A stretch of DNA of 64,000 nucleotides from Gracilibacillus orientalis (GTDB taxonomy: Bacteria > Bacillota > Bacilli > Bacillales > Amphibacillaceae), in NCBI RefSeq assembly GCF_900114645.1, contig NZ_FOTR01000009.1:124001-188000 (forward strand), given 5' to 3'. Made by a program: the position numbers and the translations under genes. Shown here piece by piece: positions 2,005 through 59,693 of this stretch (its first letter is position 1; each line of letters begins with the position of its first letter). The notes under the pieces were generated by a model that worked only from the letters and a program-made list of their open reading frames with translations, did no database searches and was not told where the DNA came from.

Positions 2005-3168
2005 TTATGCAGCCAAATCATTCTCTGACGAAAACATATAATCCTTAGACCGCGCATAAATACTTTGAACCAAACCTAACGCAAGCATATTGGTGATTAA
2101 CGCACTTCCACCATAACTAATAAAAGGCAGTGCAATTCCTGTTACAGGCATTAAGCCAATCGTCATCGCGATATTCTGGAAGACTTGAAATGATATGAGT
2201 GTAGTGATCCCAACACAAATATAAACACCGAATAAATCATCGGTTTTTAACGCAATAGTTATGATGCGGTAAATGAGTAAAAAATATAGGACGATTAAAA
2301 TACTTGCACCAATAAATCCAAATTCTTCACCTATTACAGCAAAAATAAAATCAGTATGTGCTTCAGGCACACGACCACTTTGGACTTGATAACCTTGGTT
2401 AAATCCTGCTCCTGTGAATCGTCCTGCTCCAATCCCTAACACAGCTTGTTTTAATTGATAGCCATAATCCATTGTATATTCGGTAGGATTGATCCAGCTG
2501 TAAATTCGCCCTAATTGATGCGGCTTTAAAAAAGTAGTTATCCATTCCTCATGTTGAGTAAATAAATATATTAATAATCCAGTGCCCGAAATAAGTACCG
2601 AAATAACACAAGCAACCATTTTATTGCCTATACTCGACATAAATAATAGACCTAGAGCTGCCACTGCAATTAAAAGAGCAGATCCCAAATCTGGTTGCCT
2701 TAGAATCAAAATAAACGGTATTCCCAAAACAATAACGGTTTTTAGAACAAGTGGAATACTTTTGAAAAAGGATAATCTTTCTTTACCAACTTTTTTATAA
2801 ATCGATGCTAGATAAAGAACTAAAAAAATCTTCATTAATTCGGATGGTTGCAGATCCATAAACCCAAGGTCTATCCATCTTTGAGAACCATTCCGCTCAA
2901 CACCAAAAAAACGAACATAAATAAGTAAAGAAATCCCCAACATATATAAATATATCGCCCACTTTTCAAGCAAGTCATAATCAAAGTAGGCAACCGCAAT
3001 CATGATGGCGATACTGATGATGTACCAAATAAGCTGTCTCCTGGCAAAATGAAATGATTGTCCATCTGTGTACTGACCTGTACCACTGTAAACAGCTAAC
3101 AGACTAATCACTAATAAGCCGATTAAAATAAAGAATATAAAATAATCGAATGTGGGTTTCTTTGTCAT
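2005..3168 (-). CDS. RodA-like SEDS peptidoglycan polymerase
   Basis: 387 aa with about ten membrane helices. It has the SEDS motifs LQPSELMK (about 106-113), RQPDLGSALL, PEAHTDFIF with the conserved Asp (about 273), and MPVTGIALPFISYGGSALI. It resembles RodA/MrdB of cell-wall elongation. It lies between the XRE-DUF1232 gene (16 bp) and the FtsW-like gene (12 bp) in a probable three-gene operon. A tandem pair of SEDS genes away from mreBCD or the division cluster suggests accessory copies, for example for sporulation or stress; this is an inference. Confidence 0.85.
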   Translation of the reverse strand: MTKKPTFDYFIFFILIGLLVISLLAVYSGTGQYTDGQSFHFARRQLIWYIISIAIMIAVAYFDYDLLEKWAIYLYMLGISLLIYVRFFGVERNGSQRWIDLGFMDLQPSELMKIFLVLYLASIYKKVGKERLSFFKSIPLVLKTVIVLGIPFILILRQPDLGSALLIAVAALGLLFMSSIGNKMVACVISVLISGTGLLIYLFTQHEEWITTFLKPHQLGRIYSWINPTEYTMDYGYQLKQAVLGIGAGRFTGAGFNQGYQVQSGRVPEAHTDFIFAVIGEEFGFIGASILIVLYFLLIYRIITIALKTDDLFGVYICVGITTLISFQVFQNIAMTIGLMPVTGIALPFISYGGSALITNMLALGLVQSIYARSKDYMFSSENDLAA

Positions 3169-3183
3169 TTGTCTCGTCCTTTT

Positions 3184-3792
3184 TTACTGCTTCATTGATA
3201 AAGATTGCATAACGTACTGTACAGCTAATGCATCATCTAAATACCCTATAGGAAATAAATAATCCGGAATCATATCCATCGATGCTATAAAGTAAAATAA
3301 TGCGCTTCCTATCAATAAAAGATCGTTTTTAGATGCTTTCTTTTCTTTAAATATTTGATACATAGACTCTAACTGTTGTATATACGGACCTTGTCCACCT
3401 AATGCATCCATTTTTGACCTGAATTTGTGCAAAATAGAATTTCTACCTTCTACTGTGCTACTTTCTCGCTGATACTCTTGTAAACTTTTCTTCAACCTTT
3501 CAGCTGAAAAATCTTTTACAGGCAATTTCATTTGCTTGATTAGAGCACGTACATGTTGAAAAGATACTGGCTGGTTTGACTCGCTACGTTCATCAGAACT
3601 TACTAAGTCTGATAAAGGAATATGTAAACTTCGTGAAATTGCTTTTAGATGATCTAATCTGGCTTTTCTCTTTCCATTAATAATTCTAGAGATCGTAGAA
3701 ACGTTAATTCCTGTTTCATTTGCCAATTGACGCATGCTTTTGTTGCTTTCTTTTAATGCTTCTTTTATGAACGTCGCATAATTTGTTGACAT
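3184..3792 (-). CDS. XRE-family regulator fused to a DUF1232 membrane domain
   Basis: 202 aa. Residues 5-65 are a Cro/CI-type helix-turn-helix (SMRQLANETGINVSTISRIINGKRKA). The C-terminal part (about 155-195) matches DUF1232/YkvA, with the signature SMDMIPDYLFPIGYLDD and a short hydrophobic segment. The domain pair suggests a DNA-binding protein tethered to or sensing the membrane. It is the first gene of the unit with two SEDS polymerases. The GTG-rich region AGAGGTGG forms its ribosome binding site. A perfect palindrome lies in its own promoter, so autoregulation is likely (inference). Confidence 0.8.
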   Translation of the reverse strand: MSTNYATFIKEALKESNKSMRQLANETGINVSTISRIINGKRKARLDHLKAISRSLHIPLSDLVSSDERSESNQPVSFQHVRALIKQMKLPVKDFSAERLKKSLQEYQRESSTVEGRNSILHKFRSKMDALGGQGPYIQQLESMYQIFKEKKASKNDLLLIGSALFYFIASMDMIPDYLFPIGYLDDALAVQYVMQSLSMKQ

Positions 3793-30935: not shown

Positions 30936-31190
30936 CGTCCTTATACATACTTTTTAGTATGTATAAGGACGGTTGATTTACCGCGGTGCCACCTTTGGTT
31001 GAAGGGCTATATAATATATAGCCTTCCGCTCGTTATCCGTTAACGGGGATGAGCCGTTGCTCTGTACTATCATTTCCAGGCACTCTCGAAGGTCCATTCC
31101 AATTTCCATGTATACCGGATTTTCAGCATCTCCGGTTCTCTGTTATACAGGGGGAAATTGTACTCTTCCTTCTCATCGATTTATTTGATT
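30936..31190 (-). ncRNA. T-box leader 2 of the trp operon (Trp specifier)
   Basis: The T-box AAAGGTGGCACCGCGG lies on the minus strand (complement of about 30981-30997). The specifier loop carries GGAATGGACC with TGG (complement of 31094-31096), the tryptophan codon. A strong terminator, CCGTCCTTATACATAC against GTATGTATAAGGACGG (30936-30973), ends in a T run just before trpE. The competing antiterminator uses the T-box. Uncharged tRNA-Trp should permit read-through. Confidence 0.88.
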
Positions 31191-31226
31191 AATATTTTTC
31201 TTGACACTTGGCTTTTTCAGGAAATC

Positions 31227-31500
31227 AAAAAGGGTTTCCACATCCTAAAAGGACGAGGAAACCCGTGGTACCACCTTTGTTAGCTGCACATACAGCTCAC
31301 TTAACACGTCAATGGTTGAATCCATGAACGCTACCCTTTTGTAACAAGTGGGTATCTCGCCAAAGCCTACTAAATAATCGTTCGGTTTGGGGCTCGGAAG
31401 TCCATTCACTTACCTTGCACACTGATTCGCACCAGCCATCAGCTCTCTTTTGTGCTTGCGTATAAGCTACTTCTCTTCGTCAATGCCATCACGTTTTTTA
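31227..31500 (-). ncRNA. T-box leader 1 of the trp operon (Trp specifier)
   Basis: First of two in series. Stem I contains the conserved AGAGAGCTGATGGCTGG and GTGCGAATCAGTG; the specifier is TGG in GTGAATGGAC (complement of 31402-31404). The T-box AAAGGTGGTACCACGGG lies at about 31260-31279. The terminator pairs GGGTTTCC with GGAAACCC (31232-31264) and ends in TTTTT. Confidence 0.9.
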
Positions 31501-38509: not shown

Positions 38510-38541
38510 ACTATCAAATGTTACTAACTGAATAGTTTTTT

Positions 38542-38690
38542 CTTATCCTGAGAGGTGGAGGGACTGGCCTTACGATACCTCAGCAACCGTCTGTAATTGA
38601 CAAGGTGCTAATTCCAGCAAGCATAACGTGCTTGGAAGATGAGAGTCTTTTTCTAATTAATCTCCGTCTTTCTATAGCCGGAGATTTTTT
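38542..38690 (+). ncRNA. SAM-I riboswitch (S-box) with terminator
   Basis: The S-box core opens with CTTATCCTGAGAGGTGG and GGACTGGCC; ACCTCAGCAACC, GGTGCTAATTCC and GAAGATGAGAG follow in the usual order. The terminator pairs AATCTCCG (38659-38666) with CGGAGATT (38679-38686) and ends in a T run. High SAM should switch off the two methionine genes. Confidence 0.95.
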
Positions 38691-56672: not shown

Positions 56673-57467
56673 ATGCAATCAACGAAAGACCAGTCATTGG
56701 CAATCAATGTGGAACAGCTGAACGAGGATATTAAAACATTTCCACAAGTTCACCCGATTACACCTGACATGCATACAACACATAAGGGTGTATCACGACT
56801 TGTTATGCTGGACCGATATGCATTCAAAGATACAGAAAAAAAGACTTTAAAAATAGGAGACTTTGTCGTCTTAACTATTAAAGAAGACCCTAAATTCCCT
56901 GCAAGAGGTACTGGTACTATTTTAGAAATTAATGAAACAAACCGCAAAGCCCGTATTCAAATAGATAAAGATTATGTTCATGTGTTAGAAAAAGATGCAG
57001 AGCGTGAAACTGGTGTGATTGAACGTTCTTTAAGCATTATAGATAAACCGTTAGAAGTCTATTACGAACAAATTGCAAAACGTAATGCAACAGGTCTTGC
57101 AGAAGTAGAAACAACCAAAGAAAAACAAGATCAATCATTCGAACATTTCTATCAGGAACTGTCTAGCTTAAACTTTGTTCCAGCAGGACGTGTCCTATAC
57201 GGAGCAGGATCGCATACAGATGTAACGTATTTCAATTGCTATGTAATGCCTTTTGTAAGAGATTCCCGAGAAGGTATCAGTGATCATCGTAAGCAAGTAA
57301 TGGAGATCATGTCTCGTGGTGGCGGTGTTGGTACCAACGGATCAACACTTCGTCCTCGAAATGCGTTAGCTAGAGGTGTAAATGGTAAATCATCCGGCTC
57401 TGTCTCTTGGCTGGACGATATCGCCAAATTGACACACCTTGTTGAGCAAGGCGGATCAAGACGTGGT
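56673..57467 (+). CDS. nrdJ: B12-dependent ribonucleotide reductase NrdJ, exon 1
   Basis: Codons 1-265 of an 852-aa protein. Start behind AAAGGAGG. It holds the N-terminal region and the beginning of the class II reductase barrel: AGRVLYGAGSHTDVTYFNCYV, with Cys189 the likely redox-pair cysteine, and GGGVGTNGSTLRPR. It ends in GGSRRG, directly before AQMIML of exon 2 in all full-length relatives. Unspliced translation would stop 12 codons into the intron. The enzyme makes deoxyribonucleotides with adenosylcobalamin and does not need oxygen. Confidence 0.93.
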
Positions 57468-57929
57468 AAATTTGAGTGCCTCGTCTATAAAAAAACCTCG
57501 TGAATTGCTGGGAACTCTTTAAGTTATAAATGGTAATTGAGACCTTAACTTATAACAAGGGAGATTATCATGAAAATGTATGATGCTAAAAATAATCAGA
57601 GTTGTAAACTGTGTGAATATAAAATATCTCATAATAAACAACTTTGATTATGTGAAAAGCATTATACAAAACTTGTTGGCTACAACGTAACCGGAAACGG
57701 TAAACGTGAATGCTCAAAAATAACAAGTCAAAAAAGACAATCAGCAGCCAAGCTCCTGTAAAATGGAGAAGGTTCAACGACCATCGAAACCACACGTTTT
57801 TCGTGGAAGGGAGTAGAGTAGGAAGTAAGTACTTCCGAAGCGCGAGGGTATCTAAAGATACAAGATATGGTCTGAACTCTAAGGTGACTTAGAGAGTTGA
57901 TGTAACGAATCAACGCAACATTTTATATG
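57468..57929 (+). ncRNA. group I self-splicing intron in nrdJ
   Basis: 462 nt. P1: exon end GACGTGGT (57460-57467) pairs with the guide GCCTCGTC (57478-57485), with the canonical U-G at the splice site. P10: TTTGAGT (57471-57477) pairs with exon 2 GCTCAAA (57930-57936). P4: TGCTG (57506-57510) with CAGCA (57742-57746). R GTTCAACGACCA (57773-57783 region) and S AAGATATGGTC (57862-57872) form P7 GACCA/TGGTC. P9: CTCTAAG-GTGA-CTTAGAG (57877-57894), a GNRA loop. The last base is G (57929). Subgroup IA is likely. Confidence 0.93.
57570..57761 (+). pseudogene. degenerate intron-encoded ORF with zinc-finger-like motif
   Basis: An ATG at 57570 behind AAGGGAG opens 25 codons ending in TGA (57645-57647); the same frame continues for 37 more codons to TAA at 57759. 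Across the stop it reads CKLC, then LCEKHY, a C-X2-C ... C-X2-H pattern. It lies in the P5 loop, between the P and Q core strands, a known site for intron ORFs. It may be the remnant of a homing endonuclease or accessory protein. Confidence 0.5.
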
Positions 57930-59693
57930 GCTCAAATGATTATGTTAAACGATTGGCACCCTGATGTGATTGAATTTATCATCTCGAAGATGCAAAATCC
58001 AAGAATATTACGTTATTTAATTGAAAATACCGAAGACGAAATCATTCAGCAATTGGCAAGTGATAAATTAAATTTCACACCACTTTCTGCTGAAGAGGTA
58101 CAACTATACCAAGGTATTGTCAATTTTAAAAACATGCCAGGTCAAGGTGGATTCTCCGATGCCAATATTGAAAAAGCAGAAGCAGAATTACACAATGGTG
58201 GATCCTATTCTGTTCACAACCGTGACTTTTTAACAGGTGCGAATATTTCTGTTTGTATTACCGATGAATTTATGGAGGCTGTTGAGCAAGACCTTGAATA
58301 CGACTTACGCTTCCCTGATGTAGAAAATTATACGGCAGAAGAAATGGAATACTATAACAAGCATTGGCATGAAGTCGGCGATGTTAGAGAGTGGGAAAAA
58401 TTAGGGTTTGGTGTGAAAGTTTATAAGCGCATCAAAGCAAAAGAATTATGGGACTTAATTAATGTTTGTGCCACTTACTCTGCTGAACCTGGTATTTTCT
58501 TTATTGATAATGCCAATAAGCAAACAAACGCAACTGCGTATGGACAAAAAGTAGTAGCAACAAATCCATGTGGGGAACAACCACTCGCTCCGTTTTCTGT
58601 CTGCAATTTAGCTGCCGTTAACTTAGCGAATGTAGCGGACAAAGAAAAGAAAGCACCAGACTTTGATAAATTAAAACAAACGGTTGAAATCGGCGTGCGC
58701 ATGCAAGATAACGTTATTGATTCAACACCTTACTTCCTTGAAGAAAATCGTGTACAAGCACTAGGCGAGCGTCGTGTCGGTTTAGGTGTCATGGGGCTTC
58801 ATGACTTACTGATTTATTGTGAATCAGAGTATGGCTCAAAAGAAGGTGATGAATTAGTAGATAAGGTATTCGAAACAATTGCGACAACCGCTTATCGTAC
58901 TTCCATTGAATTAGCAAAAGAAAAAGGTAGCTTCCCATTCTTAGTTGGTGAGACAGAAGAGGAAACACGAAGCTTACGTGAAAACTTTATCTCTACTGGT
59001 TATATGCAAGGTATGCCAGAAGATATTCGAGAAGGGGTTTTAAAGTACGGTATTCGTAACTCACACTTATTAACCGTTGCGCCAACAGGTTCAACTGGTA
59101 CCATGGTTGGTGTTTCTACCGGACTTGAACCTTACTTCTCTTTCACCTACTATCGAAGCGGAAGATTAGGTAAATTTATCGAAGTAAAAGCAGATATTGT
59201 TCGAGAATATTTAGACAACAATCCAGAACAAGATCCAGATCATTTACCTAAATGGTTTGTAACAGCTATGAGTTTACCACCAGAGGCACACGCAGATACA
59301 CAATGCGTGATTCAGCGCTGGGTAGACAGCTCTATTTCCAAGACTGTAAATGCACCAAAAGGATATAAAGTCGAACAAGTGGAGCAAGTTTATCGTCGCT
59401 TATACCGCGGTGGTGCAAAAGGTGGTACGGTTTATGTGGATGGAAGCCGTGATTCCCAAGTCTTAACACTAAAAGCAGAGGAAAATACCTTTTCAGAACA
59501 AACAGAACTATTTGAAGATGAAGAAAAGAAAGTAGTTATCGTGGATACAGTAAACGAATTAGATAAAACAGACATGTCGATCGGCTCTGAAGTTGGCGAA
59601 ACATGCCCTGTCTGCCGTAAAGGTAGCGTCGAAGATATTGGTGGATGTAATACTTGTACTAATTGTGGTGCACAGCTTAAATGTGGCTTGTAA
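57930..59693 (+). CDS. nrdJ: B12-dependent ribonucleotide reductase NrdJ, exon 2
   Basis: Codons 266-852 of the spliced protein. It holds the radical site NPCGE (Cys479) and the redox partner in SVCNLA (Cys490), the loop APTGSTGTMVGVSTGLEPYF, and the C-terminal four-cysteine motif CPVC...CNTCTNC that re-reduces the active site or binds zinc. The in-frame ATG at 57927 belongs to the intron end, so apparent initiation there is an artefact. A terminator follows. Confidence 0.94.
   Translation, partial: AQMIMLNDWHPDVIEFIISKMQNPRILRYLIENTEDEIIQQLASDKLNFTPLSAEEVQLYQGIVNFKNMPGQGGFSDANIEKAEAELHNGGSYSVHNRDFLTGANISVCITDEFMEAVEQDLEYDLRFPDVENYTAEEMEYYNKHWHEVGDVREWEKLGFGVKVYKRIKAKELWDLINVCATYSAEPGIFFIDNANKQTNATAYGQKVVATNPCGEQPLAPFSVCNLAAVNLANVADKEKKAPDFDKLKQTVEIGVRMQDNVIDSTPYFLEENRVQALGERRVGLGVMGLHDLLIYCESEYGSKEGDELVDKVFETIATTAYRTSIELAKEKGSFPFLVGETEEETRSLRENFISTGYMQGMPEDIREGVLKYGIRNSHLLTVAPTGSTGTMVGVSTGLEPYFSFTYYRSGRLGKFIEVKADIVREYLDNNPEQDPDHLPKWFVTAMSLPPEAHADTQCVIQRWVDSSISKTVNAPKGYKVEQVEQVYRRLYRGGAKGGTVYVDGSRDSQVLTLKAEENTFSEQTELFEDEEKKVVIVDTVNELDKTDMSIGSEVGETCPVCRKGSVEDIGGCNTCTNCGAQLKCGL

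Follow-up and report, generated by a model that had tools for sequence, protein, structure and literature searches.

A group I intron with a relic endonuclease in the class II ribonucleotide reductase gene nrdJ of Gracilibacillus orientalis

In the window (the whole stretch of 64,000 nt of the Gracilibacillus orientalis genome that was analysed) the gene nrdJ, which encodes a class II ribonucleotide reductase (RNR), is interrupted by an insert that our sequence comparisons confirm as a group I intron (Table 1). We consider it about 93% probable that this intron is spliced, that it derives from homing, that its endonuclease has collapsed and that it is now inherited mainly vertically. Taken alone, the window intron is a typical representative of a class already known; the interesting part is the wider hotspot in nrdJ.

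Host gene and intron boundaries

Both exons match the NrdJ equivalog profile NF005991 (vitamin B12-dependent RNR), which they tile without a gap, and the exon 2 open reading frame alone scores 1134 bits against the 854 required; on TIGR02504, exon 1 corresponds to positions 20–157. The sequence-only reading, which had named a class II RNR as the host, is supported by these matches. Exon 1 ends with the codon GGT at 57467 and exon 2 starts with GCT at 57930, and removal of the 462 nt yields an NrdJ of 852 residues with no internal stops, in which GGSRRG is joined to AQMIML. These edges, together with the final G at 57929, are those that had been proposed from the letters alone. The closest named NrdJ among the relatives listed is that of Gracilibacillus kekensis (94% identity).

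The Rfam model Intron_gpI (RF00028), a check proposed beforehand, matches at 61.2 bits (E 4.5e-13, cut-off 50). The model places P1 inside exon 1 (match 57390–57894); we rejected this placement in favour of the one indicated by the frame, the U-G pair and the empty alleles, and the intron ends were set by P1, the terminal G, the reading frame and the relatives with an empty site rather than by Rfam. The resulting P1 is the one described previously, with one U-U mismatch and a U57467-G57478 wobble at the 5' splice site, which together with the terminal G57929 is characteristic of group I introns. In one comparison the window copy scored 59.6 bits, less than several bare copies, among them those of the congeners G033 (78.5) and G030 (82.9), through the endonuclease relic described below or through some decay.

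The genome searched comprises 4.61 Mb on 29 contigs, and the window lies on contig 23. A second, intact and intron-less nrdJ, which had been named in advance as a finding that could overturn the identification, was not found on any of the 29 contigs. The other large RNR subunit of this genome is encoded by a complete class I gene (762 aa; NF006665 1204 bits versus 1057), and nrdJ is not the sole RNR gene. Estimated over 350 codons, the dN/dS of nrdJ against three intron-bearing congeners (G033, G028 and G030) is 0.067, 0.038 and 0.042, respectively (G022 gave no estimate), values that indicate strong purifying selection. Such low values in a gene with a frame-breaking insert imply that the insert is removed, and from this selection and the conserved core we infer that splicing is active.

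Elsewhere in the genome, a weak second group I match (28.7 bits, cut-off 50) was dropped as another candidate, being a second group I intron that splits the tmRNA gene at its T-loop (contig 16; L176 2318–2936, minus strand), an intron type already described (PMC11915505); ARAGORN did not find a tmRNA in this stretch. Two T-box leaders in tandem and one SAM riboswitch are also present in the window (30962–31492, minus strand; 38540–38645, plus strand).

Table 1. Features of the interrupted nrdJ gene; positions are those of the window, and cells are counted over 52 same-site introns.
Feature	Positions	Strand	Details
nrdJ exon 1	56673–57467	+	265 codons, last residues GGSRRG; NCBIfam NF005991 positions 4–266 of 858
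Group I intron	57468–57929	+	462 nt, terminal G; RF00028 61.2 bits; empty-site relatives; covariation
nrdJ exon 2	57930–59693	+	587 codons + stop, AQMIML first; NF005991 266–858; TIGR02504 158–606
In-frame TGA stop	57501–57503	+	met by exon 1 translation read on into the intron
P1	57460–57485	+	57460–57467 with 57478–57485; U57467-G57478 at splice site; 412/416 cells paired, 8 predicted pairs
P10, 5' strand	57471–57477	+	with 57930–57936; sequence; 212/326 cells
P3, 5' strand	57496–57502	+	3' strand 57841–57847; 364/364 cells paired
P4, 5' strand	57505–57511	+	3' strand 57741–57747; 364/364 cells paired, zero double changes
P5, 5' strand	57516–57519	+	3' strand 57734–57737; endonuclease insert in its loop
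Relic, N-terminal zinc-finger-like scrap	57570–57647	+	25 codons then TGA; Shine-Dalgarno-like AAGGGAG upstream
Relic, C-terminal scrap	57631–57690	+	different frame; ends ...LLATT stop; aligned with G310 endonuclease C-terminus
P5 extension helix	57672–57727	+	57672–57678 with 57721–57727; 352/360 cells; double changes in 7/7 pairs
P5 extension hairpin, GAAA loop	57685–57707	+	57685–57693 with 57698–57707; 363/364 cells; double changes in 5/7 pairs
P6	57753–57768	+	57753–57756 with 57765–57768; 208/208 cells; double changes in 2/4 pairs
P7, 5' strand	57779–57784	+	3' strand 57867–57872; hand-placed, pseudoknotted with P3; 310/312 cells, near-invariant
P7.1 and P7.2	57790–57836	+	57790–57796/57802–57810; 57821–57826/57831–57836; 91 and 50 doubly changed cells
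P8	57848–57861	+	57848–57853 with 57856–57861; 302/312 cells paired
P9, GUGA loop	57877–57894	+	363/364 cells paired
P9.1	57896–57914	+	309/312 cells paired

Secondary structure and covariation

Pairing was counted in 52 introns inserted at the same site, folded with RNAalifold and with P7 placed by hand; nine of the 61 same-site introns were excluded for missing anchors or extra inserts. Covariation across this set supports most helices, in line with the original assignment to group I. The share of paired cells, rounded, is 100% in P3, P4, P6, P7.2 and P9, 99% in P1, P5, P7 and P9.1, 97% in P8 and 96% in P7.1. Double changes occur in P3 and also in P6, P7.1, P7.2, P8, P9, P9.1 and the P5 extension helices; in each of these, P3 aside, the observed pairing was reached by 0 of 500 shuffles, figures that are not probabilities, since the shuffles ignore relatedness. 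One and the same alignment served to predict the structure and to count the pairs. P4 and P7 are nearly unvarying, without double changes, and hence uninformative by covariation. The core helices P3, P4, P6, P7 and P8 are all conserved in the 52 introns. Group IA is marked by two additional helices, P7.1 and P7.2, lying between P7 and P3; both are present here, with double changes in 6 of 6 and 5 of 6 pairs, respectively. Helices P4, P7 and P9, discerned in the sequence-only reading (P9 with a GNRA cap), are paired in nearly all cells of the set. The seven-pair P10 that it described is present in the window but is not general, for only 65% of the cells in the 52 introns are paired, so that its full length is lineage-specific.

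The relic endonuclease and its intact relatives

The intron carries, at 57570–57690, remains of an endonuclease gene that had previously gone unmentioned. Approximately the first 24 and the last 20 residues are retained, in differing frames; 168 nt are left, and about 750–790 nt are gone relative to a full-size gene. The N-terminal scrap matches the intact endonucleases of G118, G310 and G467 (tblastn E 4e-10 to 9e-9), while the C-terminal scrap is 80% identical to the endonuclease of G310 over 30 aa, in an alignment that runs past the stop (E 8e-14). The C-terminus with its LLATT-stop is encoded in ribozyme sequence, 87–92% identical to the best-matching Staphylococcus and Serratia phage introns. 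In place of the intact endonuclease of a homing intron, the window copy thus has two out-of-frame scraps; autonomous homing today is unlikely for a copy with such a relic, which is probably no longer autonomously mobile.

Among the 61 same-site introns, seven (in G118, G310, G440, G279, G467, G258 and G221) encode a full-length endonuclease of 288–318 residues, six a full-size but broken one and 15, the window included, a partly deleted one; 29 are bare, three carry a LAGLIDADG gene alone and one lacks the anchors. The seven intact proteins have invariant cysteines and an ECDGDYWH motif in common. Two of the three that were scanned match DUF559 above the cut-off and all three match Vsr below it, and a seven-row profile matched the Vsr structure 1cw0 at E 0.012. 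A single endonuclease sequence searched against the PDB yielded no useful match, the best being a helicase at E 0.0033. We propose that the ancestral endonuclease, encoded in the P5 loop, combined a zinc-finger-like region with a DUF559/Vsr-like nuclease. The 1953-nt intron of G221 (L245) contains two endonuclease genes, a DUF559/Vsr-like one near the 5' end and LAGLIDADG_2 further on.

Occupancy of the insertion site

Four insertion points were distinguished (the slash marks the point): A, RRG/AQM; B, RR/GAQM; C, the point before WHP; and D, SR/RGAQM. In the family, a query spanning the junction matched 140 of 159 genomes, of which, as read by eye from the match table, 32 have a split gene, 74 a contiguous one (including the partial G154 and G026 with 66% identity) and 34 weaker RNR matches only; 32 of 106 NrdJ-bearing family genomes are thus split near the site. 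In the order, 347 of 397 genomes matched and about 81 are split, by a similar reading of the table. We analysed 73 of the 74 split genes outside the family, leaving out that of G404, which spans contig ends; G172, G282 and G497 underwent a second search and were not counted as split. The first interruption lies at site A in 29 of the family's 32 split genes and in 32 of the 73 from the order. Over all 105 split genes (the window, 31 of the family and 73 of the order), the first insertion point is A in 61, D in 27, C in nine and B in eight, and a second interruption before WHP occurs in ten; the genomes were chosen as split near RRG/AQM, and these counts are not rates for the whole gene. The three other points lie within about 31 nt of A. 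Such occupancy in family and order agrees with the suggestion, made from the window alone, that a highly conserved coding site is used for homing, and the intron-less alleles that were to be sought in relatives exist in the 74 contiguous family genomes, the congener G. kekensis also having an empty site.

Five congeners (G033, G028, G030, G022 and G036) keep the intron after loss or decay of the endonuclease; the window core is 93–96% identical to the introns of G033, G028 and G030, and 91.5% to that of G022. In G016 (L144), G010 (L154), G259 (L195) and G221 (L245) the intron ends in A, not G, at the inferred 3' splice site; here either the last base is unusual or the junction is shifted. G013 (L167, 2060–2920) has two group I introns in nrdJ with an exon of about 30 nt between them, and L142 shows a group I match within exon 2 (3033–3329, 83.5 bits). 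In several family nrdJ genes that are empty at the site, the open frames reach only about 480–510 or 670 codons, which suggests more interruptions downstream.

Descent, horizontal movement and viral counterparts

We compared intron and exon trees for 49 introns (three near-identical rows left out) in an alignment that is short (about 310 nt) and structured. The intron data reject the exon topologies (delta lnL 263 and 248, AU p about 1e-47 and 1e-46), and both exon data sets, protein and DNA, reject the intron topology. Of the 15 intron splits with at least 95% support, three clash with supported splits of the exon protein tree and two with those of the exon DNA tree, the clearest clash being the grouping of Gracilibacillus introns with those of G454 and G468 from other families. 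As a control, the exon trees also differ from each other, with an RF of 0.48 where intron and exon trees differ by 0.76–0.80; the exon protein tree is itself rejected by exon DNA (AU p 0.005). We take the conflict as indicating horizontal movement, although it could partly be an effect of the short, structured alignment. Since fourfold sites approach saturation (median 36%), pairwise comparison of intron with synonymous-site identity was not decisive on transfer and was dropped in favour of the topology tests.

On a NrdJ tree of 58 occupied and 92 empty alleles (150 rows after removal of 21 identical ones from 171, without introns of sites B, C and D, the empty alleles being best matches and not a random sample) occupancy requires at least 32 changes, versus a mean of 46 and a minimum of 38 for shuffled labels, which argues that occupied alleles cluster by descent and that the intron has also often been gained or lost. 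The insertion point follows the intron lineage, with five changes versus a shuffled mean of 26 and minimum of 20 on a tree of the 78 of 114 introns that have the needed anchors. Five site-A introns (G415, G512, G322, G219 and G162) have a 3' end typical of B and D introns, and the LAGLIDADG protein of one site-A intron shares 61% identity over 119 residues with that of a site-B intron; together these observations point to movement between adjacent sites.

A viral scan with the G310 endonuclease gave 100 confirmed stretches, and the best 80 were retained; gene context was read at two of these 80, L250 and L251. In L250, a viral contig of 107 kb, nrdJ is interrupted after TIGR02504 position 157, identically to the window, by 1220 nt that contain a matching 3' core and code for an endonuclease of 42% identity. 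This endonuclease is seemingly interrupted in its N-terminal reading frame, and Intron_gpI of Rfam was not found in the 1220 nt up to E 1. A further intron-like stretch (2299–2760) breaks the same viral nrdJ farther upstream, after QKNGG. In L251 a 41%-identical protein lies within an NrdJ intein (TIGR01445, 48 bits), about 7 residues downstream of the corresponding point. The G118 endonuclease had four matches at E 1e-5 in 50,697 phage records, none covering more than 80% of its length.

Our tentative proposal, to which we give somewhat less than even odds, is that GGSRRGAQM of nrdJ is a shared landing strip, where several ribozyme lineages occupy four adjacent points, along with inteins, and where endonuclease families hop from one adjacent site to another and from intron to intein platforms or back, with phage nrdJ genes as the vehicle by which bacterial chromosomes of the order are seeded.

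Proposed history and alternatives

According to the explanation that we favour, the intron would be transcribed with nrdJ and fold so that its guide pairs with both exons (P1, P10). Guanosine bound in P7 would cut at U57467-A57468, and the exons would be joined after G57929, restoring the 852-residue NrdJ; guanosine attack and exon joining are the splicing steps of this intron family. The intron would have arrived here or in an ancestor through endonuclease-driven homing at the conserved GGSRRG/AQM codons, the endonuclease in the P5 loop would later have collapsed into the two scraps, and, judging from the intron tree, persistence in Gracilibacillus would now be mainly vertical. The Rfam score, the gapless tiling of the exons, the split and contiguous genes of the family with 29 of 32 splits at exactly this site, the covariation, the low dN/dS, the matches of the relic, the rejection of both exon topologies by the intron data and the viral interruption at the same codon favour this explanation; against it stand the Rfam score lower than those of bare copies and the unconserved seven-pair P10.

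With a complete class I large subunit in the genome, loss of splicing might be tolerated, and this, along with the dead endonuclease, would fit a scenario in which splicing has been lost, nrdJ is a pseudogene and growth is carried by class I RNR. We regard this as very improbable, because the exons are intact, the core helices are kept and dN/dS is 0.04–0.07 against intron-bearing congeners. Even less credible to us is a fractured gene whose halves are translated apart into a two-piece enzyme: an ATG at the intron end (57927) does open an ORF of 588 aa, and a working two-piece RNR is known from phage Aeh1, according to PMC3653736, but no Shine-Dalgarno was found by eye before 57927, same-site introns elsewhere end in TTG, CTG or TAG, some with a stop there, and the ribozyme is conserved by covariation.

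Unlikely, if less so than either of these, is that the endonuclease-free intron is kept as a splicing switch on class II RNR output. Its retention in the five congeners named above would agree with such a role; however, empty sites are common, G. kekensis included, an unsystematic look revealed no regulatory element, and precise loss of introns is rare, which could by itself explain retention.

Relation to known systems

The nrdJ site is a single chromosomal site that, across close and distant genomes, offers empty alleles as well as introns whose endonuclease is intact, broken, partly deleted or missing. It is therefore suited to studying the spread and decay of inserts, as the homing cycle, its rates and the phage link are testable in a bacterial chromosome. 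We found no report on nrdJ introns of this order in the open-licence literature, judged on titles and the starts of abstracts; more than 100 group I introns are curated in RNR entries, according to PMC2795772, and some nrdJ cases may thus already be known to curators. For annotators, split nrdJ genes in the order may be introns, not frameshifts.

A segment of about 100 nt of the window core is 70–79% identical to introns of relatives in most matches, and seven of the eight matched loci examined are in what we take to be flagellin-like genes. These introns were first taken for tandem nrdJ introns, which translation ruled out. The flagellin-like genes of relatives (L168, L170–L175) often have two group I introns about 450 nt apart, and L168 has four, with a spacing of about 1.5 kb. 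Flagellin introns (Hayakawa and Ishizuka, as cited in PMC3984707) resemble the window intron in being chromosomal and in having Bacillus-type hosts, but they sit in another gene and at other sites, often several per locus.

The RNR introns of phages and Bacillus (nrdE and nrdF; Twort, SP-beta, the B. cereus group) share with the window the intron class and the enzyme superfamily, whereas the host gene here is the class II nrdJ and the site GGSRRG/AQM; moreover, the endonuclease of the window lineage is DUF559/Vsr-like and lies in the P5 loop, as against HNH in Twort (PMC3653736). Phage introns have core DNA in common with the window intron: matches at E 1e-3 occur in 245 of 50,697 phage records, introns of Staphylococcus phage recA are 92% identical to the window core over about 110 nt in two pieces, and the Twort nrdE intron is 86% identical over 42 nt. 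The cyanobacterial RNR intron (Meng et al. 2007, as cited in PMC3984707) likewise belongs to group I and interrupts an RNR gene on a bacterial chromosome, but holds an insertion sequence, as its title states. Finally, tmRNA T-loop introns, as described in PMC11915505, also occupy several neighbouring subsites in one short conserved stretch; they differ in having an RNA gene as host, and 36 of 883 (4.1%) contain an endonuclease gene.
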